Assembly (NCBI GenBank): GCA_003024175.1
Contig: MDYQ01000241.1
Location: 1-41,494, forward strand
DNA from: Planoprotostelium fungivorum
Taxonomy: Eukaryota; Evosea; Variosea; Cavosteliida; Cavosteliaceae
Direction: 5' to 3'
Length of the DNA stretch: 41,494 nucleotides
Positions 3,236 through 39,290 of this stretch are shown here, in pieces. Numbering within the stretch: position 1 is the first letter of the stretch; the number at the start of each line of letters is the position of its first letter. The notes beneath the pieces are model-generated. The model ran no database searches and was not told the origin of the DNA. It saw nothing but the letters and a program-made list of their open reading frames with translations. A program made the translations under genes and the position numbers.

Positions 3236-4476
3236 AAACAATACATCTCACATGGGACGTATGACGTTCTGCAGACATTACAGATGGAATGGTTGAATCA
3301 GGTTCTTGAAGAGGATGTGCAGGTGCGAGTGAGTCACCACTTGCAGATGATCTTCATTATAACATGAATAGTTGTCGGAACTCTGGGACGAAATGAATGA
3401 GAAATTTGCAAGACAGATCTCCAGTCTGGAGGAAGAGATGGAAGAGTTGGACTCCCACCTAAGAAATCGCACCTGGGCTGCCGAGAACATGCAGCCTGGA
3501 TCCTATTTTGACGAGGACGAGGACCTTGACCAAATCGTAGACATGTCTGAAGATAGGCAAGAGATGCTTGAGGAAGCATGCGTTGGGCTTGATGAATTAC
3601 GGTCAGATATCTATGCAGTAAATTGGGAGACAGGTAGCGACCTCTTTTATCACTGGCGTGTGCACGAAAATATAGCCCGTAAACTCAAACAATTCTGGGC
3701 ATCCTTAGAAGATTTCACATCTGATTGGCGGCAAGAGGTGCGCCTCTTGGCAATCGTTGTGATGATTATGACTCATCACACGCAGGATGAAGATTTCTCT
3801 GATCCGCAAGACACACTAAGCAATGCACTCACAGATCTACTTGAGGTTGACTGGAATGATGACCCTGAGGGTGATGATCCTCAATCATCAAGATCCAAAG
3901 AGAAGCTACGCGAAATTTATTCTTCAACATGGAATGAAGCCATGAAAGAAATCAAGTCGGCCAGATCCTTCAACAAGACCCAAGAGATCATACGCACATT
4001 GATCATTCCAAAGCCGGTGTCCATGTATGTTTTCACCGAGGAGCAGCAAGAGAAAGAGATAGTCATATACGTGGGCATTTCAATCGATATCTACAACAGA
4101 CACAAAGACCACAAATGGTGAGCTTTGGTCTCAAAATATACATGAAAATGACTCGTGATGAAATTGCTGACTGGAACACTGCAGTCACGACAAGATTAAA
4201 GAGGATGGTATCTCAGACCGATGCTTCGTGTACCTATGTAGCACCAATTCCGATTATCAGGATGTCAAAACTCTGGAGGCCAACCTGATTCACAAAACAC
4301 AGCCGAAATATAACACAATGTCCAAGAAGACACTCGGTAAACATCCAGATTGGAGTTGGCAGCGCATTAAGATTGAAGATGACACATTACGTGCCGCTTT
4401 CCAAGCTACCTTGAACAACTACCAAGTCAATCACGAACTAGCTGTAGACTCTTTTCAAAGAATGAAAATTGAATGA
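3236..4476 (+). CDS. GIY-YIG nuclease-domain protein with coiled-coil N-terminal region
   Basis: Two main exons join across an intron from the GT after CACAAATG (about 4119) to CTGCAG (about 4182). The first part has Glu-rich helices (ISSLEEEMEELDSH) suggesting a coiled coil. The C-terminal third fits a GIY-YIG domain: MYVF, then IYVGISIDIYNRHKDH, then LEANLIHKTQPKYNT. This supplies the two Tyr positions, the YVG turn, the Arg and His of the helix, the catalytic Glu in LEANLI and the late Asn. The domain is therefore complete for a metal-dependent single-strand nick or cut. The protein ends with a short helical tail. An upstream exon ending near 3330 (KQYISHGTYDVLQTLQ) is likely; earlier exons from about 2974 are possible but not resolved. 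Nuclear genes with this domain act in DNA repair or belong to mobile elements; nothing nearby decides between these. Confidence 0.65.
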
Positions 4477-18300: not shown

Positions 18301-21300
18301 CTATTCCGAAGTCGCTGGAGAGGTGGAAATGTCGTAGCCGAGCACCTTAAACATCTTGTCTAACTCTTTGATGCTTTTTGCTATTGGAGCTGACTTGAGT
18401 GCTGTTCGGCATATGCTCTTCTCTCGGTTGGGTTCTCTCTGATAACAGAAGTCACAGATCATCCCCCACAATTCCTCCTCGTGACACCAAACGATTGGCC
18501 ATGAGTATAATCCACAACTGAGCCTATCAATCGAATATCGGAGGATGGAACCGTATGGATGAGAGGTACACACCGACTGCACTGTGAGTTCGTTTCGAGT
18601 AACGGAAAATACTCTGCATCCTTGGCTTTCAGCATCAAAGGCCTGATTCGCTTCCAGGTAGAAGAGAGCGACCTCCGTTCCGTCTTCGTTAAATCGTCCT
18701 TCTCGTTGATTTCTGCGGAGATGTCTGAGAGGCACCTGAATGCAGTCTCTATCATGTGAAAGTCTGATGACGGGTAGATTTCGGGCATCAAGCGATTGAA
18801 TTCATCCGCAGCTGTTCCAACTCAGATCGAGATGGTTGATTGGAAATGATCACCCATGCTCTTTCGAACGGACCGGTCCAGGGATCGAAGGAGACATAGA
18901 TCAGTGGCGATGGAACAAAACCATGGCTGCTGTGTCATCTCAATGATCTGATGCCTGAATGAATACTACTTACTTTTTTTTCCTTTGGGTGTTCGGAAAT
19001 GACCAGATGTGCACAATCAGCAGGAGTGTAGACAGCGCTTCTGTCCTTCTGTTCGATGACATAATGTGGAATCCTCCACTCAATGAGATCTTCTGGAGTG
19101 GGATTGGTCAGATCGGGCTTCCTTATGGGTGATCCTGTATCAGTCATCAATCGATTTTCTTTCGTCATCCATCGACAGTCGACTTTGTTTCATCATGATC
19201 AATCATCATCGGCATCCATGATAGTCCGTGATGAATTCATCTTCTCACCATGAAAAGCCTCCAAAGATGGGGTGTATTTTGTAGGTACGATGTACCATGT
19301 CTTGTGAGCATCTTTCGAACAGTACAGAACGTTCATCGACTCTGTCGAATCGGCATCCACATGAAACCATGTTACGGCTTTACCCATTGAGATGTAANAA
19401 AGCCTCCAAAGATGGGGTGTATTTTGTAGGTACGATGTACCATGTCTTGTGAGCATCTTTCGAACAGTACAAAACGTTCATCGACTCTGTCGAATCGGCA
19501 TCCACATGAAACCATGTTACGGCTTTACCCATTGAGATGTAACTATTCTGTCTTCAGATATCCACTCTCTCTTTCTACTTCCACTTTCAACTCACAGATA
19601 TATCCTCTCGATCGCATTGGAGTTGAGAGCGTCGGATTTAGTATTGAATCTGTATGGCTCCTTGAGATGACCATCGATCTCATGTACACATCCCAACAGT
19701 GAAAGAGAGCTGCAGGATATGTCGATGACATAGTGACCCTCGTTCGCATAATTCACGATCTCGTCGATCGCTTGATGTACGGGTACTTCTTTTTTAGACA
19801 ATGTGTCGCCCTTACGCAGCTGATGTTTGTCATTCAAACGACCTTTCCATCTCTGTCCTTCTCAACTCACCGAGATTGTCATCGTATCCCCTAGATCCAC
19901 TCTCTCTCCTTTTCCCAGTTTGAGGAAATCCTCCTTGGAGGAGAATGCCGATGAGGGGGGAAAGTCTGATTAGGATGAGTCGATGACTCTTATCATCCAT
20001 CTGAGTTTCTCACTCTCAACTAGGACCGGTCTCTGCTGATCTGAGATGTTCTCCACAAGCCACTCCCCACTGACTTCTTTGTAGTCCTTCTTCGCATGTT
20101 CTGTCCCAACTCAGCTTCATCTTCTCAACCACATAGACTCACCCAACATAGGAACGTCTCCTTCCTCCACTACTCGGTAGTATCCATCTCTCGCCCTCCT
20201 TAGATGTGCCACACGGAATATCTTCTTGTTAGGTTCGCCACCTCTCAAGATGGCTGTATGGTGTTCCCCTCCATACAGTTCGTGTATGATCAACGTGATT
20301 CCCAGTTCACGTGCTATTCGGTACGCCTCAAGATATTCAAGTGAATCCTCATCCTCGTGATGCTTTCGGAAATCCGCTGCAGCTTTTTCGTCGGGTTTTC
20401 TGGATGAACGGGCCTCGGTGATTTTCCTCAGTGTGCCTGCCCCTCCCCTCAACACCAATCCCAACGGTTTGAGTTCGTCGTTCATCTCCTTCACAAGAAC
20501 TTACAAGTGAGTCAATCGAATGAGAAACAGGATACAGGTTAGATCTGGACGATACATATCAACGAATATGTATATCTGGATGTGGATCTCATACTTGATA
20601 TACAACTATCCTCACCTTCCTCTTCACAGTCTTGTTCCTCTCTTCCGGACTTGGGCGTCAAAGCATCAAACATACCTGAGATGTCTCAACACGAACAGAA
20701 AAGAACGGTCTGATGCTTGGATCTCTCACGACTGTGGAACAGTTTGCCTTCTGGTTTGACCTTCCACGTATCCTCTACACGCAGCTCGGGGGAAAGATGA
20801 ATGACCTCATCTGCCTCATCCAAGGAACTGACTCTCTCCACCAAATTCTCCTCTACCTCACTTTCCATTTCTTGATCTCTCTTGGACGCTGCAGATTCTG
20901 CATATTGTTCAGTCGTACTTTCTTCTTATCACTCCATCATCATACACATATAACGCAGCTCACTCTTTATCGTTCTTCTCTTCTTTCCATCTTTTCCTGC
21001 TCCTATTTAGCTCTTTTCATCCATCTCATAATCCCTCACTCTGATGGACGCTCTTCTTATCCTTTTCTTCTTTCTCATCATCTCTCTTCCTTCTATTCTT
21101 CCTCTTCTTGTCCTCTTCTTCCCCGTCATCGTCTCTCTTCCTTCTCTTCTTCCTCTCCTTATCCTCTTCTTCTTTCTCTTCTTTTTCCTCTTCTTCCTCC
21201 TCCTCTTCTTCCTCGTCATCGTCTACTACTGCTTCCTTCTTCTTTCCCTGGTTGACTTGAGTATCCTCTATGTCGTCCTGTCATAACCTCTACATCCTTC

Positions 21301-23640
21301 ATCTCATCAAGTGATAATATCTCCGAATCCTCTGCCTCCTTTCCAACGATGCCTTCTTCTATGATCTCTTCATTCACCACTCCTTGTGAAGCCTCTTCCA
21401 AATCGAATCTTCCTGCTGAATGATCCTACTCGATGTTATTCTCTCTCCTTTGTGCTTCTCTCACGTCGACACCATCATCGTGTGTTGCTCCCTTCTCTCC
21501 GATCGCTTCCGCAGACAATTTCGATTGTTTCAAACCTTGTTGTTTGTTCCTGTGTCTTGTATCAATATTGCAAGTGAAGCTCTCGAATCAGGATGATACT
21601 ACTCACTTTTCGCCACATACGTACTTCTCAACAATCTGCGTGACGACTTCAGGCTGGCTGTAAAATCATTCAACGACTTGACTCCTGCTAACTCTTCACC
21701 TCATATCGTTCAGTTCTGACACTCTCGGCTTGATTTGTTTCCACATATCTGTCTTTTCACCCTCTATTCCTTTGCACATACTGAGATACTTGTCCATTGG
21801 TGTCTTCCATATAACGTGAATGGGGTGCACCCCCTGCTTGGACGATTTGCCTCGGAGATGAAGGATGGCTTTACAATCACACAGACATCTATCGTGCCTC
21901 AGATGTTGTCATCATCATCGATCGTCTGACTCACTTGGTCACTGCCTGACGCTCAAAAAGATGGCGTATATAACGAGGCTTATCATCGATACGACTATCT
22001 TTTGCTATGTAGCATATCACGACTGCTCTGGCAAACAACAGAGTTTGTGTCTTCTTGTCTATCACTGTGTGTATCTGATCATACGATCACTACTACCCCC
22101 CACATCCCACTCACTTGACGGAGCATATGGCCTGGCCAAGTGAAAGCAGCATCGATCTCCCCTCGCAGCTCGATATAGAATATCAAGATCATTATTGCTG
22201 TTCGTTGTTTGACGTAATCTGAGACTTGAGCCAAGGCAGATGGTTGGCAAAAGCTTTTCAGCATCTCCTCTAAGTTCTCAAGAGTAAATTGCTGATCGAC
22301 CCATCAGAATCCTTACTCCACGTCGCCTCACATTGTGACGTATTCTGTCGCGAGTGTTGTCAATACTCCCAAAGATGGTGGCAGCGGTCATGAATTCGGT
22401 CTTCTTGACATCTTCTACACCTTGCGACAAGATCTCGTCTGGTATGAGAGGTCAATCTCCTGTCATCCAATTCTCGTCATCTCCTCACCCATCCTCTCGG
22501 CAGCAATTTTCAATTCTCGAAGGCTTGGGATGTAAATCTCTTTGCTGGACAGAAACCCTCTGTCGATTTTCATCTTCTCGACGTTGTCTTTTGTCAAACA
22601 ATTGAGAACTCTGTCTCTCTCTGGCTCTACGCCCACCACTTTCTCAGCCTCTGCTCATCGTCATTTCAAAAGCTGCATCTTCCTCTTCTCGTCTCACTCT
22701 CTGCATTGGGTCCTTCCATCTCATTCACTTCTTGATCGTCTTCCTGCTTTCCTTCATTCCGCTGTTCTCTTTCCTTCAACATATCCTTCTTTCGGTCGAG
22801 ATCTTCTTCCAACTGTAATTCATGTGTCACACAAGGAATGACACCATATCCATCTCATTGTATGGAATCAAATTTCACCTTTTTGATCAAATCCTGCCGT
22901 TTGCTTTTCAAGTCTCCATTTCTCACTTCTAGATAAATCTCCTCCATCCATTTCTTCACTCCTGCTTTGTCTAGTTGTCGATCTTTCCTCGATAGCAGTA
23001 GCTCTATAAACCACATTGTGTAGATTCCACACGAGAAGTTGTCCTGCTGGATCGACTTCCGATCTTTCCAGGGGCGGATGATGTACTACATGCAAGTTGA
23101 GCATCACGTCCCATTCCATCTACTACTCGATGACTCACTTTCTCCTTTATCCCTCCTTCCATCAGACACTGCATCAAGGACGCATACCGTCCCTCTTTGG
23201 GTTCCTCTCTCTTCGAATCCAACAGATACGCCCGCGCCGGGGGGCCTGGCACGAAGACTACCAATATCCAGTGGTCATCGAAGTTGAATGGACACAACAC
23301 GAATTGGTCTTGTTTTATCCATTCACTGCATTACCTTCATCATCCATTCGAATCTATTCTCCTTTTATCTCACCGTATGCTTTCTACAGTGTGTTGATGA
23401 GAAGGCCCTACATTACCCAAAGAGTTGGCTGCTTTCAGTACTGTCCCTTGTAAATCGAGTCGTCGCAGAGCCTCCAGCCTCGAATCGATCAACAGATCGG
23501 TGATCCACCCATCTTCATCTCTTGCCCTTTTTAAACTTTTTTCTGTTGTTTGGATGTAACTCCATTCATCATCCTAGACCGGTGAGCTCAACCTCGAACT
23601 TCTTCTCCTTCCACTCACCATTGTTACGGGCTTCGACGTT
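18301..23640 (-). CDS. Ulp1/SENP protease - OTU-like (inactive?) - JmjC multidomain protein
   Basis: More than a dozen exons join in phase on the minus strand. From the N-terminus: a C48 protease with DGWITDLLIDSRLEAL, DDHWIL (His codon 23271-23273), AYLLDS (Asp 23217-23219), QQDNFSCGIY (Gln about 23047, Cys 23029-23031). An intron of about 66 bases holding an in-frame TGA follows. Then come helical exons (KMKIDRGFLSSKEIYIPSLR, EILSQGVEDVKKTEF, LKSFCQPSALAQVSDYVKQR, IHTVIDKKTQTLLFARAVVI) and an acidic/basic run near 21.04-21.23 kb. An OTU-like domain has PEGKLFHS where PDGNCLFHS is expected, and DGYYRVV where gHYdxV is expected, so catalytic Cys and His appear lost. The JmjC domain has FHVDAD (HxD, 19500-19508), KTWYIVP and the third ligand in CAHLVIS (19007-19009). 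The last exons are Cys-rich (CSR/CGLY...WCHEEE...CDFC) and end at 18301. It is probably nuclear. The first exon and one join after the JmjC core are uncertain. Confidence 0.6.
19254..19542. repeat. 144-base duplication around a single N (likely assembly artefact)
   Basis: Bases 19254-19397 and 19399-19542 are identical except for one base, with N at 19398 between them. The segment encodes the iron-binding core of the JmjC domain. The offset of 145 shifts the reading frame, so only one copy can be in the real gene. Two overlapping contigs placed end to end explain this best. Confidence 0.85.
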
Positions 23641-24418
23641 CTCCTGTCTCAAAAGATTTTGTGATGTCCCTTCCTGGGGTCAAATATTTGAGCTCGTCAG
23701 AGGAGCTTCGGCTTATTCGGACAGAAACTCCCTCCGCCCCCAGAAACTCCCTCCCTCAGCCCCATTTCTACGGTCTATTCTCTCAATCAATTATTTACAG
23801 TGAGAGTGGGAAGAGGAGACTTTGAGCGGGCATGAGAAAAACTGTCTACCTGGAGCTTAGTAGGTCTCTCACATCTTCTGCAGACATAATCATTATCCTA
23901 TCTTTAGTTTTCTTCAGACATCTTCTATTTTAGAGAATGGGGAGGAAATAAGTCTAGAGGGGTGCCCATTCTTTATCGCGAGCGTAAACGATGACGTCAC
24001 CATTCGTCAGTATCGTTAGAAACTCTTCACTGTTACCCTCTGACCATGTTGCTTGCGCTCTTGTGTGTGAGAAAAGGACTTTGAATCGTTGTAGAAATGT
24101 CTCGGGTTGTAGAACCGAAGGTGTTCTGGGGAATTGTTTGCGGGCTCAATTATTTGTACCACGAATAGTCTTGGTAGAACAAATCTTAGCATCGCCGAGA
24201 GAATGCACTAAAGATTTAAGAATTCCATACCAGGACTCTGGATGTGCAGGCAACACGTTGATATTCTCAGAGAATATCTTCAAACCGATCATTTCGTTGA
24301 CTCCGATGCAATTCTGATAGATGTCACAACAACTCTGCCGGCGGCCACATCAGCGGCAACATGACATCTTACTCAGGATGCGGCGGCACGCGGGGCACTT
24401 TTTCAGATAACCCACAAA
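23641..24418. other. Intergenic, holding a copy of a dispersed repeat (24136-24180)
   Basis: About 45 bases around ATTATTTGTACCACGAAT closely match 415-460. The rest shows no convincing gene. It separates the divergent Ulp1/JmjC gene and the GTPase-like gene, so promoters for both should lie here. Confidence 0.5.
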
Positions 24419-29613: not shown

Positions 29614-32034
29614 ATGAGCGATGACGATCGGCTGAGAAAAATCATCCGAAGCCACGCAGAAGACATAGTCTCCACGTGGAGACTAGCCAGCCGCATTATC
29701 GATGATATCCCTCTCAATACATCTCTCCGCTCTCGTTTCTGCGAAATAGGGGTGAGTGCTGGGCATCAGACTCGCCACTTACAACAAACGTAGAACATCA
29801 CCTACAAAAATTTCGCCAGAGATCGTCGAACGGCATCAGCCTCCTTTAAGAATCGATGCATCGCTGCGATCAACACAATAGCTTTTCCGCCTGTCGATGA
29901 CTTTTCTGAGAGCGAGGAGGACAGCGACTCAGATGATGAAGACCAGACGGACATTGAGGTCGTCCCTCCTGAAGATTTGGACGTTAAGGGATTTGTCAGA
30001 CGTATATCAGAGGGACGTTTCAAGGCCGCCTACGATGGTTTACTTCAGTGGGTCAGGCAGCACCTCAACGAGAAGATACCAGAGGAGTTGGTCCAACTCC
30101 TATCTATTGTGGGATATCAAGGCGACAAAGCTCTGCCAAGCTGGACAAAAATCGAGATGGTATCTATTGGTCAGAGTCCTGTAGGAACGGTCCCTGGAAT
30201 TGGCCATACTATCTATCACGAGTATATGGCAGTGAAGGAGAGTGTCCTTCTCCTGGGTTCAAAGACCGCATTCATCAATGCTCTGAGTGGTCCATGCGAG
30301 AGCCTTGGTTACAAATATACACTCGCCGAACTTGATGGTATGAGGAACATAGCTCGATTATTGTTGTTCTGCTTCCCCAAGGTCAAGTTAGTCAGATTAT
30401 TAGGAAAACATGCTGCCAAGGTGGATATCATCAAAAATCATTCCAACTACATGGTTCTGAAACGATCTGCAGGTGTTCAACATGCACAAGGGGCTCTGCC
30501 GTTTCAAGTTGGAATATAAGACGCGAATCCTTTTTGGACCTGCAGTACAAGTAATGCAGTTCAAACACCCTAAATGGACTGGAAACTATACTTCCAATAG
30601 TGATTATGATACTATAGTAGCCGAATGCAAGAAAAAACTCAAGGAGAAAGTGCAGAGGTGAGATCAATAGGGGACGAGAATGACATCAACCAGCCATCAA
30701 GTGGATGTAGGGGAAGAGGTTGCCAAACTATTCGAATACCAGAAGGATTCATTCCGCAGCTTCCCAAAGATAGTAGAGACAAAAAGAGACAAAAACAAGA
30801 AGCCAGAGACTGAGAATATTCACAAAGAACGCTTGGTACACTCTCAGGCTGCTGCCAACGCTCTTCCTATCATCAAATCAAATTCCGTGGGTGTGAAGGG
30901 AGATTCATCAAACATCTTTCAGCCTCCACCCTCTGTGTTGATTAAGCAGAAGAAGTCGCCCATTGATGATGTCAAAGAGGAGGTACGTTGTCTATCGATG
31001 ATTAGTCAGTATCAATAAGTTGAGAAAGTACATCTCAATATCAATAGTTGGTGATTGCTGAGGACCCACCCGCTATTGATGGAGTTGCAGATATAGGCAA
31101 TTCTGCTCTTGGTGAGCCTTGTTGATAAGATTGATTTATACTCAACCTTATAGTTCAAGAATACTCCAAGACAGCAGTAGAGACCAATAAACCCAAGGAA
31201 TATGTACTTTACACTGCATCCCCTCCAAATCAAAGAGAAATTGCAGAGTTCTCGCATAATTATGGCATGGCATTGAGACCTGTGAGTTTACAATCTATAC
31301 TACCTTGAAAAATACAAAATAATTCTATTATGTACGTAGATAACATACTAAGGTTGGTGATATTTGGGCTCTTGTATTCACCAGTCAAGATTCAGCTGCA
31401 AAGGTTCAGCAACTTATTAACGATAAGATCCTCTCTGCGATTGATCAACTCAGCACAAGCTTGGCATATATAGACATTGGCGAATGCGGTCAACACCAAA
31501 AGAGAGCGCAAGATCCTACCCCAATTGTGGATCCTTTTGATTTGATTGACCTCCCAGCTGGTATGAGCCATCATGATTGTGGTGAGATGATACCAGACCA
31601 CATAAAAACTCGATATTGAACCATATCAGGTGGAGAGGGCGACTGCATGTTCAATGTGATTGCAGAGCAGATTGGAGAAGAATCTCTCTCTATCAGAAAT
31701 GACGTTGCAAACTTCCTTGATAGTACCAGCGGTTGTTACATAGGAAAGGACGGTGGACTAGTTAATGTAGAGGAGTTTGCAGGGCAATCATTAAAGGAAT
31801 ACACTGATGCTATCCGCCGACCAGGGACATGGTGAGATGATATTCAAATCTTTACACCAAAATATTGATGATTGTTTCAGGGGAGACCATCTGGTTTTTG
31901 AGGTTTTAGCACAACTCCATCCTGAGCTACATTTCGTCATTCACACTCTGAATGAAATCATTGAAATTGGAACTGGGGAAAAGATTATTCGCCTAGCATT
32001 TGTGCCCGAACTGCACTACAAATCAGTCAGTTAG
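29614..32034 (+). CDS. OTU-family cysteine protease (deubiquitinase) with long N-terminal region
   Basis: From ATG at 29614 (MSDDDRLRKIIRSHAEDIV) exons join in phase across introns starting near 29751, 30421, 30659, 30982, 31121, 31282, 31611 and 31833, to TAG at 32032-32034. The N-terminal part has an acidic Ser/Asp run, then a region with LLSIVGYQGDKALP, and a basic linker rich in Lys. The C-terminal domain is a clear OTU fold: GGEGDCMFNVIAEQIGEESL (catalytic Asp 31641-31643, Cys 31644-31646), LSIRNDVANFL, TWGDHLVFEVLAQLHPELHF and finally PELHYKSV (His 32014-32016). All three catalytic positions are present, so it should cleave ubiquitin or a related modifier. The domain is C-terminal and of normal length (about 140 residues). 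It lies in the same 15 kb as the minus-strand gene with an apparently inactive OTU domain. Confidence 0.8.
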
Positions 32035-33513: not shown

Positions 33514-33903
33514 ATGATCGACACGATACGATCGATCAGCGTCATCAGTAACATCATATTCGTTCTCATCTCCCTTCACGAATGTGTGCGCAATTGGTAT
33601 CAGGATGACATTCAGCTCATAGCATCCATCAGGCAGCGAGTGACAAAAGCTACGACACGATGGATTCCCGTGCGGTCTCCCATCACAGTATTAGCATCGC
33701 CCATGATTGCTTACCTTACGAGTTCGGAATGGGATCGTGGGTTTTCAATCAGGTATGATCGTAGCTGTATGACTTTCATGATGTGTCGTATTTGTTCAAA
33801 TACTCTCAATAGATCTGTAGGAGATATCTATAGACAGCACAGAAGGACTCTGGAGTGCCGTGTTGAGGTGAGATTTGGACAAGAACGATGGACTGACTCC
33901 TAG
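33514..33903 (+). CDS. Uncertain small hydrophobic-start protein
   Basis: A 129-codon frame begins with ATG and has a hydrophobic segment near its start (SVISNIIFVLISLHECV), possibly a signal anchor. It continues with a basic, Arg/Cys-containing part. A GTATGA...CAATAG pair near 33753-33811 could be an intron, which would change the C-terminus. No family recognised. Confidence 0.2.
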   Translation: MIDTIRSISVISNIIFVLISLHECVRNWYQDDIQLIASIRQRVTKATTRWIPVRSPITVLASPMIAYLTSSEWDRGFSIRYDRSCMTFMMCRICSNTLNRSVGDIYRQHRRTLECRVEVRFGQERWTDS

Positions 33904-34318
33904 TAGAGTAAGAGCCGGTGTGCTCGATACTCTGGATCCCATCTCCACTCGTCCATCATGGTCGAGGTCCTCCCTGTTGTGGTGTGGGTTGTGAGTGCAT
34001 TTGATTAAGTGGTCTCGGCGAATTCTTTCGTTTGATGAAGTAATAGTCGTCTCGCAATTTGACTAACAATCCGTCCAGGAGATTTTGGACCGAGCTCCCC
34101 ATTGGGGGGCCTCGGGGGTGCCCTCGTATCGTGGAGAGGTCCGTTCGTCGATGCCTTGAGAGGAGGTGAGTTCTCTTGCGGTGTAGAGCTGATACCGATG
34201 TCCAGGAGTGCGTTCTCTGCGGTTTCTTCTGAACCAGTCATCGAGGGAGGGTGGATGGATGCGCACGTGATACACAGGACTCCTTCTCTGTTACCCAGAC
34301 AAGAATTATTCAAATCAT
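33904..34318. other. Intergenic, left flank of the truncated Ty3 element
   Basis: No recognisable gene. The sequence shows no reverse transcriptase motifs, so the retroelement similarity begins abruptly near 34310. Confidence 0.45.
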
Positions 34319-36964
34319 ATGTTGACAAAGTCCGTCACAGCTGATGTGTGTTGTCATTTTGACCCGTCGCTACCAATTGTGCTAGAGACGGACGCGTCGG
34401 ACTTTGCAATTTCAGGCGTTCTATCCCAGCGACACAAAGACGGCTTACATCCTGTAGGATTCATGTCGAGGAAGATGCAACCTGCAGAGTTAAATTACGA
34501 TACACACGACAAAGAGCTGTTGGCAATTATCGAATCGTTGAAAGGATGGCAACACTACACTATGGAAACTTCAACTCCATTTGAGATCATTACGGATCAC
34601 AACAATTTGAAATATTTTATGACATCGAAGAGTCTGAATAGGTGCCAAGTACGATGGTGGCAATTTCTATCAGATTTCAACTTCACGTTATCTCATCGAC
34701 CGGGGAAAGAAAACATCGTTGCAGATGCACTATCGCGTCGCGAACAGGATGAATTAGACATAGGGGACAGACAGAACCAGCAGAAATGTCTACTTCCTCC
34801 TCACTTGTTCGCGGTTATCGACGCGAACGTACAAACGGAAAGTACATTGTACATGCACATTGAGAAGATGTTAAGAGAAGCGTATCAAGATGACCAGTAT
34901 TATAACGATGTGATGCAATGGTTGAACGACTATGGTAATGAACATAGACCACGTTTTCCTGGCTCAGGAAAGATGAGATCTTACGACGGAGACCTGGACG
35001 ATAACGATCACACTGATCAAGGGTTTCACGTCACTGACGACTTACTCTTTTACGAAGAACAATTGTATGTGCCGGAGAAACTACGTCTGATCATCATGAT
35101 GATAAAGCACGACTCGCCCTTTGCGGGACATTTTGGCTCGCACAAAACTAAATAATTGGTCAGAAGAGACTACTGGTGGCCAAAGATGTATCATACCATC
35201 GAGTCATACGTCAAGTCCTGCGATACATGTCAGAGAGCGAAGCATTCTCGCAAGAAACAATCAGGACTCCTGCAACCTTTAGAGGTGCCATCAGACAGAT
35301 GGACGTCTGTGACGATCGATTTCATGGTCGAGTTACCAGAGTGTCAGGGGTTCAACGCTATAATGGTGGTAGTAGACAGATTCACAAAGATGTCACATTT
35401 CATTCCGTGTAAGAACACGATCACCAGTGAAGAAGCAGCGTGGTTGTACATCGATCGAGTGTTTCGGCTACATGGCATCCCCGAGAAGATTGTCTCAGAC
35501 AGAGGTACACAATTTACTGCTGAATTCTGGACGTCGTTCTGGAAGCAGATGGGTACAAAACACTCGATGTCAACGGCTTATCATCCACAATCGGACAGTC
35601 AGACAGAACGGGTCAATTCCGTGTTAAACCAATATCTACGAGTGTACTGCTCCTATTTACAAGACGATTGGGTCCCTTTACTGGCAACGGCGGAGTTCGC
35701 ATACAACAACTCGGTACACACGTCAACCGGAGTTACACCGTTCTTTGCAAACCAAGGGTTACACCCAAACACAGGAAGAGGATCTCGCAGTATATCTGAC
35801 GATCCTAATGTGTTGGCAGTCAAGTTAAAAGAGTACTCCGAATTCCTTCGCACAAACCTTGAAGAGGCTAGACAGGACATGAAGAGGTTTGCTGACCGAC
35901 ATCGTTCAGCAGCCCCGATCTATCAACCAGGGGACAAAGTTCTTCTATCAACGAAGAATTTTGGCACCTCACGTCCAAAGCCAAAATGGGCAGACAAATG
36001 GATCAGTCCTTATCGCATCCTAAAAGAAGCACACCCTGGATCATCCTCTTACGTATTGAGTTTACCCCCTTCCATCAAGATATACCCGGTATTTCACACC
36101 TCACTTCTCACGCCGTACGTGGAGAACACATTGGTAGGTCGAAAGAGACCAGCTCCACCTCCTGTCGTAATTGACGGTGAACAAGAGTACGAGGTTGAGG
36201 CGATCTTGGATGTACGGAAGCGATATGGGAAGACCCAATATCTCGTAAGCTGGAAAGGTTANCTGGCAACGGCGGAGTTCGCATACAACAACTCGGTACA
36301 CACGTCAACCGGAGTTACACCGTTCTTTGCAAACCAAGGGTTACACCCAAACACAGGAAGAGGATCTCGCAGTGTATCTGACGATCCTAATGTGTTGGCA
36401 GTCAAGTTGAAAGAGTACTCCGAATTCCTTCGCACAAACCTTGAAGAGGCTAGACAGGACATGAAGAGGTTTGCTGACCGACATCGTTCAGCAGCCCCGA
36501 TCTATCAACCAGGGGACAAAGTTCTTCTATCAACGAAGAATTTTGGCACCTCACGTCCAAAGCCAAAATGGGCGGACAAATGGATCGGTCCTTATTGCAT
36601 CTTAAAGGAAGCACACCCTGGATCATCCTCTTACGTATTGAGTTTACCCCCTTCCATCAAGATATACCCGGTATTTCACACCTCACTTCTCACGCCGTAC
36701 GTGGAGAACACATTGGTAGGTCGAAAGAGACCAGCTCCACCTCCTGTCGTAATTGACGGTGAACAAGAGTACGAGGTCAAGGCGATCTTGGATGTACGGA
36801 AGCGATATGGGAAGACCCAATATCTCGTAAGCTGGAAAGGTTATGGCCCAGAGGAGAATTTGTGGTTACCTGAGGACAACCTGTCTAATAGCCCGGACCT
36901 GGTGGCAGATTTCAAGGCAAGGACCGCTCGCGTCACCACATCCAAGAGGAAGCGCAAGAACTGA
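34319..36964 (+). mobile_element. 5'-truncated Ty3/gypsy (chromovirus-type) pol: RNase H, integrase, chromodomain
   Basis: The frame starts inside pol at the Ty3 RNase H (VLETDASDFAISGVLSQ, DKELLAIIESLKGWQHY, ITDHNNLKYF, ENIVADALSRR). It goes on to the integrase zinc finger (HDSPFAGHFGSHKT ... SCDTCQRAK). A TAA at 35153-35155 interrupts the same frame between the His and Cys halves of that finger. The catalytic core follows: VTIDFMVELP (Asp), IVSDRGTQF (Asp) and YHPQSDSQTERVN (Glu). After the GPY-like region a chromodomain reads YEVKAILDVRKRYGKTQYLV then SWKGYGPEENLWLPEDNL. Reverse transcriptase, protease and gag are missing. As assembled, the integrase tail to chromodomain start is present twice around an N. 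Chromodomains steer integration towards marked chromatin. Confidence 0.9.
35681..36843 (+). repeat. 581-base duplication around a single N in the Ty3 element (likely assembly artefact)
   Basis: 35681-36261 and 36263-36843 are the same sequence, differing by roughly eight substitutions, with N at 36262. The offset of 582 keeps the frame, so the merged frame looks like one 602-codon protein. The join probably links contigs from two copies of the element or two haplotypes. Confidence 0.85.
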
Positions 36965-37120: not shown

Positions 37121-37465
37121 TCAAGTCCATGATCTGCATCCATCCTTTACCCCAACGTCAAGTGTGAGATCATCCAACCATAACAGCATCACTCCCCAGA
37201 TGACTTCTTTCACTATCACAAACGGTCCTATACGCTTATCTGACCATTTGGCTTTTGGCCTCTGAGACTTAATGTTCTCTGGGACAACATCACCTTGTCC
37301 CCCCCCCGGCTTATAGCTTGGCAACAGACAACAATGTACATCTGCGTACTTCTTCATCTCGTCACGAGCGTATTCCAGGCTCTCTGACAGGAACATCATC
37401 AAGTCCTTCATATGAGAGGCAAGCTCTCCAGAGTCATCACTTAACGTACAACAGATTCCTCCAAA
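37121..37465 (-). mobile_element. Antisense fragment of a different gypsy-type element (integrase C-terminal part)
   Basis: On the minus strand the frame reads LEYARDEMKKYADVHCCLLP then SYKPGG, SQRPKAKWSDKRIGPFVIVK. This is the conserved integrase-tail pattern (AR..M...AD..R...y..GD.V.l...RP..K..d..IGPf.I). It differs clearly from the neighbouring plus-strand element in sequence, so it belongs to another lineage. A run of nine C/G interrupts it near 37302. It abuts the DIRS-like element directly. Confidence 0.65.
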
Positions 37466-39290
37466 TTGATTGGATGGGCCGGTCTGTACAACGGGAGGAC
37501 GGCACGGGGGAATTGGAACAATGGAGAGCTGGAAGGACATATCAACTTCAAGGAGCTGGAGGCGGTGCGGAGGTCGCTGGCGGCATTCAGATCACTTCTA
37601 CGAGGGCAGAACATTCCACTTCAGACCGATTCAACGACGGCGATGGCGTATCTGCGCAACGAGGGTGGCAAGGTACCTCATCTTATGGAGATAGCGAGGA
37701 AGATATGGGAGCTGTCTTTGGAGATAGGTTGCCAGATCGTGGAAATCAAATACGTACCCTCAAAAGAGAACATGGCGGACCTGCCATCTCGAACGTGGGA
37801 CGTGCATGGCTGGAGAATCAACGACGATTGCTTCCAAAGGATAGTAGAGAAGTGGGGAACACCAACGGTGGATTTGATGGCGTCGGACGAGGGCAACAGA
37901 GCGAGTCGGTTCTACACGGAATTTTGGACACCTCTGTCTTTGGGGGTCAACGCATTGGCGCATACGTGGGAGAGGGAGGAAGACTATTGGGTGGAACCAC
38001 CGTTCGGGATCATACTGCGGATTTGGAGAAGATTGTACGCTCGGGGATCAGAGCAACGATCGTGGTTCTGGATTGGCCGTCTCAGCTTTGGCAGCCAATT
38101 CTCAGGCGCATAACGGTAGACGCTTTGGTGTTGGGTCAGTCCAAAACAGTAGTGGAAGAGGGCACTTGCAGAGGGAAGATACCGGAGCCTTGGAAGGGAG
38201 ATTGGACGATGCTGGCAGTACGGGTGGACGGGACAAAGTTCGAGCTAAAAAGATGGTGTGAACCTTCTATACTCAAGCCTTCATGCGTCTAGCACGAGCA
38301 CCAGCCACAGTTCAGAGGGCAGAGCGGATGGAGCAGTACCTAGAAAGTTACCAAGGGCTTCACGGGGTGGAAGTACGGACGAAAGCAGCAGTTACGCGGA
38401 TGCTGCTGTGGCTGGAGGACAATAGTTTCGTTTCACGGGCACGGGGAATGCTGACGACTCTATCGGAGAGGCTGCAACGCGATTGTATGGAAGATATAAC
38501 AAAAGACTTGGGCATCCGCCGGCTATGCAGAGGCATTCAGGCAGCTCGGTCCACTACAGAGATGGAGGAACGGTTGTCGCTACCAGTACAAGTCGTTCGA
38601 CACTATTTCGTGAACAAACCGCATGGGATGGCGGAGCGTACGTGGGCAAGGAACCGAGTTATACTGGTGCTGGGATTTGCCTTCATGAGACGACCAGGAG
38701 AAGGGCAGCAAGTTTGCCAAAAGCACGTACGGTTCGACCAGATGGGATGGATGTACATTCGGCTTCGCCGGACCAAGACGCTAGCCTCGGGGAGAGAAAT
38801 TGTGATAGAGACAACCGGATCGTTCTTCTGCCCAGTAGCTGCGGTACGAGGCTACTTGCAACGATGGCCCGGAGAACCTGAAGATCCACTGTTCCCTGCA
38901 CTTGGCCGTCACAGTGGACAACAAGGGATCTCCTGAGATGCAGTCAGCCAAATTGTGAAGGAGGCACGGTTGGCAGGGATACAAGGACGATTTACCGGTG
39001 GAGCCGGAGAGGAGCTACGATGGGACTTGCTGGGAAGAAATAACAAGGGAGAACCTGCCGTAGACTTACCGGTTGAGCCGGAGAGGAGCTGCGACGGGAC
39101 TCGTCCACAAATCGCACAGAGCAGGAGGGGAGAAACGATAGTCCCAATGGCGGAACGTGGGGTGCATAGACGAGGAAAAATTATACGGGCCTGGTTTTCC
39201 TACGTACCGTCGCGTAGGTTTTTCACCAAGGCCGTAGACACCCCCAAAAATAACGAAACACAAATTGTTGGCAGGATGTAGATAAACGAC
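37466..39290 (+). mobile_element. Decayed DIRS/Ngaro-like element: RNase H plus tyrosine recombinase
   Basis: The first frame carries a DIRS-type RNase H: GHINFKELEAVRRSLAAF, LQTDSTTAMAYL, VEIKYVPSKENMADLPSR, then WRINDDCFQRIVEKWGTPTVD and LMASDEGNRASRF. Near 38.05-38.11 kb the coding frame shifts (PSQLWQPILRRITVDALVLG). From 38283 a tyrosine recombinase follows: helical N-terminal domain, then VILVLGFAFMRRPGEG with the first catalytic Arg, and LRRTKTLASGREIVIE. A TGA at about 38935 interrupts it before DAVSQIVKEARLAGIQGRF. The HxLRR box is damaged and present twice in a 74-base tandem duplication. The reverse transcriptase that normally precedes RNase H is missing. A final block GLVHKSHRAGG...IIRAWFSYVP may hold the nucleophilic Tyr. 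Confidence 0.8.

Follow-up and report, generated by a model that had tools for sequence, protein, structure and literature searches.

Contig MDYQ01000241.1 (C193) of the amoeba Planoprotostelium fungivorum (Amoebozoa, Variosea), taken here over its whole length of 41,494 nucleotides (nt) and called the window, carries on its minus strand a gene that fuses a Ulp1-type protease to a JmjC oxygenase and a zinc finger. We regard the fusion as real. It includes a family-specific middle domain, and the gene is a member of a small family that changes fast and has been found so far in one species. The presence of the protease at the N-terminal side and of the oxygenase near the C terminus of one gene is well supported, and very probably this one gene gives one chain. 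The predicted chain of about 1290 residues would run from the Ulp1 protease through a coiled or helical and an acidic linker to the middle domain, an Fe(II)/2-oxoglutarate JmjC domain and a four-Cys finger.

The gene occupies positions 18301..23621 and consists of 26 exons and 25 introns, which join in phase from an ATG at 23621 to a stop at 18301 and give a single frame of 1289 residues. An earlier note, made from the sequence alone, had described continuous in-phase joins on this strand, and both the model and the single public protein at the locus bear this out. All 25 introns are GT-AG (22 start with GTGA) and measure 37-116 nt, close to the range of about 35-110 bases first described. The largest intron between 22.9 and 20.1 kb is 116 nt long, leaving little space for an intergenic region. 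The public protein, PROFUN_13889 (P0003; 1400 residues), is 97% identical to our model across 99% of the model. The main difference lies at the N terminus, where P0003 has extra upstream exons and lacks the first residues of the model; the position of the gene start is uncertain, because exon 1 of the model is the ATG alone. A second irregularity is a repeated 144 nt flanking a single N at 19398 (19254..19542, minus strand). The two copies, 19254-19397 and 19399-19542, are 99% identical, the N between them splits one exon, and the JmjC domain is partly duplicated in P0003 at this place; the duplication is probably an assembly artefact. The second N of the window, at 36262, likewise joins near-identical stretches (581 nt), and both look like unmerged assembly overlaps.

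The Ulp1/Peptidase_C48 domain is encoded by exons 2-4 (22879..23573, minus strand). In the spliced pieces, it matches PF02902 with 37.2 bits (E 3.7e-9) against a cut-off of 20.7, and in P0003 with 31.6 bits (E 1.9e-7), again above the Pfam cut-off. The complete Ulp1/SENP catalytic set that had been claimed is recognizable by reading, in the order His (FDDHW), Asp (YLLDS), Gln (SIQQD) and Cys (FSCG), and these residues are identical in two other copies of the gene, C239L and C101. By score and catalytic residues, the domain thus resembles the Ulp1/SENP proteases (MEROPS C48), but it is distant from the solved members (the best match in the PDB is XopD, E 0.19) and differs in being fused to a JmjC domain. 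The name SUMO protease holds for membership in the Ulp1/C48 family; SUMO as the substrate is taken from the family label, and C48 members also process ubiquitin-like proteins other than SUMO.

The JmjC domain is encoded by exons 21-24 (18974..19819, minus strand). It reaches 45.3 bits with PF02373 in the spliced pieces (E 1.4e-11; cut-off 24) and 30.7 bits in P0003 (E 4.7e-7), also above the Pfam cut-off. The HxD...H pattern reported earlier was recovered as a complete iron triad, HVD (FHVD) and a second His (CAHLV); an Asn and a Lys (KTWY) can be read as well, and we take all of these to be the metal and cofactor residues. The FHVD, KTWY and CAHLV residues are conserved in C101. Among the JmjC oxygenases, KDM4D is the nearest solved one by sequence. 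The match to it is weak (E 0.046), but the Asn and Lys of the window domain align with those of KDM4D. In P0003, no PHD or Tudor domain was given by Pfam; the JmjC domain is joined to a protease.

The middle domain (exons 16-18; 20143..20924, minus strand), which the earlier note had called OTU-like, is of a different standing. The spliced domain of 187 residues matches no Pfam family at E<=10, and its counterpart in C101 matches DUF6034 alone (E 0.1). By reading, the catalytic Cys box of OTU proteases (GDGNC) is absent, with PEGKLFHS in its place, as is the catalytic His: a Tyr stands there, with RDGYYRVV in place of the HY motif. A search for PF02338 throughout the genome (36.9 Mb, 471 contigs) lists five places and not this one; a sequence-profile search of the PDB with the middle domain returned interleukin-10 and one channel, and no OTU; PHROGs gave five families, the best with E 0.013, none of them matched by more than one of four members. 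The likeness to OTU deubiquitinases is a weak profile similarity over 39 columns. With hhalign, the domain compared with one OTU had a probability of 0.6%, and a four-sequence profile compared with five OTUs of the same genome had a probability of 16% (E 0.0016). A rerun with other settings gave a local score of 19.7 (probability 2.6%) and a global probability of 0.06%. The highest local score among 60 column shuffles was 15.0, and the reversed profile had 13.4, so that neither attained this value. The global score did not stand out from the shuffles, 35 of 60 reaching it. The middle domain was found at four places in the genome, each inside a copy of this gene family. It is best described as family-specific, and possibly, at best, as a degenerate and catalytically dead OTU-like domain. 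Of the three activities that had been placed on one chain, two are supported: the Pfam search of the spliced pieces recovered Peptidase_C48 and JmjC, two of the three expected domains, and not OTU.

A canonical OTU gene is present elsewhere in the window (31344-32034, plus strand, perhaps starting from about 29614). Its two exons, separated by a 49-nt intron, show a GDCMF Cys box and an LHY motif by reading, and Pfam OTU scores 22.1 bits (E 2.4e-4), slightly below the cut-off of 23.3. An upstream open reading frame (ORF) at 29794-30516, which may be part of this gene, has only one listed place in the genome.

The remaining parts of the protein are a linker and a tail. A coiled or helical region (exons 5-12; 21465..22812, minus strand), placed by the exon model and with a counterpart in C101, is followed by an acidic low-complexity region rich in Glu and Lys (exons 13-15; 20964..21425, minus strand), the length of which varies between copies. 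The Cys-rich tail seen earlier is present and takes the form of a four-Cys zinc finger (18445..18581, minus strand), recognized by reading, with no Pfam family over the cut-off. GATA-type fingers have a spacing of CX2C-X17-20-CX2C. The finger fits it both in C101 (CX2C-X18-CX2C) and in the window (CX2C-X19-CX2C), in the latter if splicing uses a CAG acceptor that lies 6 nt downstream from the modelled one. A GATA identity was nevertheless set aside, as no GATA family of Pfam matched at E<=10; in the PDB, the best match of the C101 finger is ribosomal S29 (E 8.9e-4), with GATA-1 at E 0.99.

The gene is one of a dispersed family with at least six loci in the genome. The genome searches list the best candidates only, so that all family counts are lower bounds. 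Among the matches listed, those to the N-terminal part of the protein lie on C193, C239 (two), C341, C101 and C32, and those to the JmjC part on C193, C273, C101, C251 and C239; from its identity of 29%, we take C251 to be a separate JmjC gene. Along 4.35 kb, the left copy on C239 (C239L) shares 87% identity with the window. The right copy (C239R) is cut off where the contig ends; its continuation may be C273, which begins inside the JmjC domain. Positions 1-18000 of C32 show the Ulp1 and Glu/Lys part alone, and the public annotation of C341 is one model, 1520 residues long, with a C48 domain. A further partial protein, PROFUN_16540, comes from a 5,664-nt contig that is not among the listed genome matches. 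The C341 protein (P0008) may carry, in tandem with its Ulp1 domain, another domain resembling a cysteine protease, read at residues ~330-480 (GHW...DPQG...Q...NCG), for which Pfam gives only SidE_DUB (E 0.068).

The copy on C101 is a full-length paralog with the same domain order. In the alignment with the window protein, 418 of 1186 residues are identical (35%) and the score is 1256, compared with 55-75 for three shuffled proteins and 41 for the other strand. Of its 21 introns, 15 coincide with window introns in place and phase; random placement gave 1.0 match on average and five at most in 2000 trials. Within the Glu/Lys-rich part, this alignment relied on three introns that are doubtful. 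A plainer reading has an open exon of 712 nt there, with introns of 44 and 51 nt, and this exon spans the point at which the public annotation divides the gene.

Selection on the copies was assessed by projecting the window codons onto them, the Glu/Lys-rich stretch 21040-21425 excluded, and by comparison with a neutral simulation of 400 runs. Copies that have diverged by 9-12% keep their frame open, while amino-acid replacements accumulate roughly as fast as under neutrality. C239L has 220 substitutions in 798 codons (152 nonsynonymous and 38 synonymous codons) and no stop, against a neutral mean of 8.6, with none of the 400 runs stop-free; its sole exon indel is 3 nt long. C239R has 236 substitutions in 635 codons (155 nonsynonymous, 34 synonymous) and, again, no stop where 7.7 are expected (0/400 runs stop-free), with exon indels of 12 and 3 nt. 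As the two share a nearly identical tract, they are not independent. In C273, with 108 substitutions in 225 codons (70 nonsynonymous, 11 synonymous), the only projected stop is the last codon of the gene itself, against 4.4 expected; eight codons are gapped, and, among indels of 3, 3, 5 and 3 nt, the one of 5 nt (at 18349) breaks the frame for the final residues. The share of nonsynonymous changes is 0.80 in C239L (0.75 expected; 6% of the runs as high), 0.82 in C239R (0.754; 1%) and 0.864 in C273 (0.782; 2.5%). Outside the Glu/Lys-rich part, the Nei-Gojobori ratio of nonsynonymous to synonymous rates (dN/dS) is 1.01 for C239L, 0.95 for C239R (a value that takes in 21 poorly aligned codons) and 0.83 for C273. 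Exons and introns of the window and C239L differ about equally (220/2397 and 69/906 sites). Against C101, dN/dS is 0.31, with dS near saturation. A kept frame together with a near-neutral or faster change of amino acids would fit diversifying selection, without proving it.

Several observations weigh against an intact and functional fusion. P0003 is the sole public protein of those scanned with both Pfam domains; P0004 ends at a contig edge before JmjC. The C101 gene is split publicly into PROFUN_12120 (the Ulp1 part) and P0006 (the rest). The OTU-JmjC part of C101 aligns with positions 1-19000 of C341 at noise-level scores of 56 and 42, and Pfam finds no JmjC domain in the 1520-residue protein of this contig. 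Remnants of the OTU-JmjC part seen there by eye were discarded, these scores being at the level of shuffled proteins, and for both reasons C341 is not taken as another distant example of the fusion. The AlphaFold models (pLDDT, the predicted confidence, of 50 for the middle-domain exon and 31 for P0006) are too poor to use. In C239R, the Ulp1 core is lost and the remainder kept. Finally, the dN/dS of about 1 between recent copies could equally come from relaxed constraint.

The split of C101 raises the question of whether two adjacent genes of the same strand, one for a Ulp1 protease and one for a JmjC-zinc finger protein, are joined only by gene models. The joint is a Glu/Lys-rich stretch of low complexity, where any frame can appear coding, and C32 and C341 lend themselves to this explanation in that the first holds nothing beyond the Ulp1 and Glu/Lys part in the region searched and the second no OTU-JmjC part above noise. 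However, the joint has no intron larger than 116 nt, the public models in C193, C239L and C239R all run across the Glu/Lys-rich region, the open 712-nt exon bridges the split point of C101 and introns common to the window and C101 flank the joint on both sides. Two separate genes are improbable. A family of many copies that is dying, its open frame a mere relic with no present function, would fit the dN/dS of the recent copies, the deletion of the Ulp1 core in C239R and the loss of 5 nt close to the C-terminal end in C273. The absence of any stop in C239L and C239R speaks against such decay, with the reservation that these copies share a tract, and so do the intact catalytic residues of both enzymes in the window copy and the ratio of about 0.3 against C101, even if dS is saturated in that comparison. 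We consider a dying family unlikely, and the single fused gene remains the preferred reading.

The window contig is rich in repeats, and the gene itself is multi-copy. A repeated motif of 30 nt lies in the 5' flank of the gene (24137..24166, plus strand) and occurs at 16 places in the genome with at most two mismatches. Its second copy in the window, at 419-448, has the same orientation, with the gene in between. The motif adjoins the gene in C193, C239L and C273; should C239R and C273 belong to a single copy, this copy has it on both sides (C239 26201 and C273 1777), again in the same orientation. Its reading as a terminal inverted repeat was set aside because longer repeats on C430 and C239 contain it too. 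On C430, two inverted repeats of 1.29 kb (22471-23750 and 46570-47832), 95% identical and 22.8 kb apart, contain the motif and perhaps delimit a large element of unknown kind; ten ORFs from this element matched no Pfam family above the cut-off. The window also contains ORFs of a Ty3/gypsy chromodomain retrotransposon (34271-36964, plus strand), with RNase H, integrase, a Tf2-1-like SH3 domain and a chromodomain.

Such surroundings raise the possibility that the gene is the anti-silencing gene of a mobile element, helping it to escape silencing that depends on SUMO or methyl-lysine. Its presence at six or more loci, the other repeats common to C193, C239, C273 and C101 (the contigs compared), the motif adjoining the gene at three copies as well as in the C430 inverted repeats, and a frame preserved while amino acids change would all be in line with this, and plant transposons are described as encoding anti-silencing proteins such as VANC (PMC5735166, PMC10398659). 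On the other hand, the motif was not seen as inverted ends at any gene copy, some copies being cut by contig ends, and no copy of it with up to three mismatches occurs on C101 1-18000. Target-site duplications were looked for by eye at two borders only, no transposase besides the Ty3/gypsy ones was found among the 20 window ORFs scanned, and the C430 element is not among the listed places of the gene family. That a mobile element carries the gene is possible; an anti-silencing role for it there is, on balance, unlikely. In its most specific form, a protein encoded by a selfish element would remove SUMO and methyl marks from the chromatin around that element, the dead OTU-like module might bind chains of ubiquitin or SUMO, and the protein would evolve in an arms race with host silencing; we regard this as a rather unlikely scenario.

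Outside the genome, the protein searches (a set of 5.8 billion proteins) detect only proteins sharing short exact words; two of them scored 7999 and 8000 candidates. They returned two, three and four proteins at E<=0.001, 0.01 and 0.1, all nine from P. fungivorum, and no relative from elsewhere within the reach of this word-sharing search. In viral contigs, exact short patterns of one JmjC sequence, which detect close relatives only, matched seven stretches, none of them encoding a relative; a viral origin was, accordingly, not retained within this reach. No report of a Ulp1-JmjC fusion was found in the literature searched, many subscription papers lying outside its scope.

Some known systems are comparable in part. 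Some CifB proteins of Wolbachia are described as combining Ulp1/SMT4 and OTU domains (PMC11342252). They thus have domains of the Ubl-protease type on one chain, and their gene family recombines and is considered to take part in an arms race. They are bacterial, with nuclease-fold cores, and JmjC is not mentioned in the text of that paper; the comparison is by description only. TET/JBP enzymes in fungal DNA transposons (PMC12730594) and the VANC proteins (PMC5735166) offer another likeness, an element carrying an enzyme or a factor against silencing marks. These are different proteins, the mobility of the window gene is only a possibility, and the text available of PMC12730594 has no mention of JmjC, Ulp1, protease or OTU.

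Other features of the window include a 5S ribosomal RNA gene (33647-33766, minus strand; Rfam 101.7 bits) and a GIY-YIG-like endonuclease gene (3372-4476, plus strand), intron-split by reading, the unspliced ORF of which matches Pfam weakly (E 0.067). An ORF at 37445-38113 (plus strand) resembles the Dam DNA adenine methyltransferase family below the cut-off (E 2.1e-4, 21.5 versus 28.1 bits).

For the fused protein, the domain content allows a mechanism to be proposed. The zinc finger and the acidic region would hold the protein on chromatin, where the Ulp1 domain would free chromatin proteins of SUMO or of a different ubiquitin-like tag and the JmjC domain would oxidise nearby methyl-lysine, so that both enzymes together could erase two marks associated with silencing. 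A single transcript, a nuclear location, the substrates and the joint action of the two enzymes are what we infer for it. This eraser of two marks is put forward tentatively, as somewhat less than an even bet, while structure and mechanism together, as the best explanation of the locus, stand at about even chances.

Silencing by SUMO and by methylation of histone H3 at lysine 9 (H3K9) is coupled. In yeast, plants and animals, SUMO is described as promoting silent chromatin (PMC8131101), and retroelements as being silenced by H3K9 methylation (PMC7354471). If the proposal is true, a protein with erasers for both marks would provide a direct handle on the coupling of SUMO and methylation. To our knowledge, little work on this coupling exists for this branch of eukaryotes. 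The protected frame, combined with an amino-acid change that is near-neutral or faster, would mark the family as one that may be engaged in an arms race.

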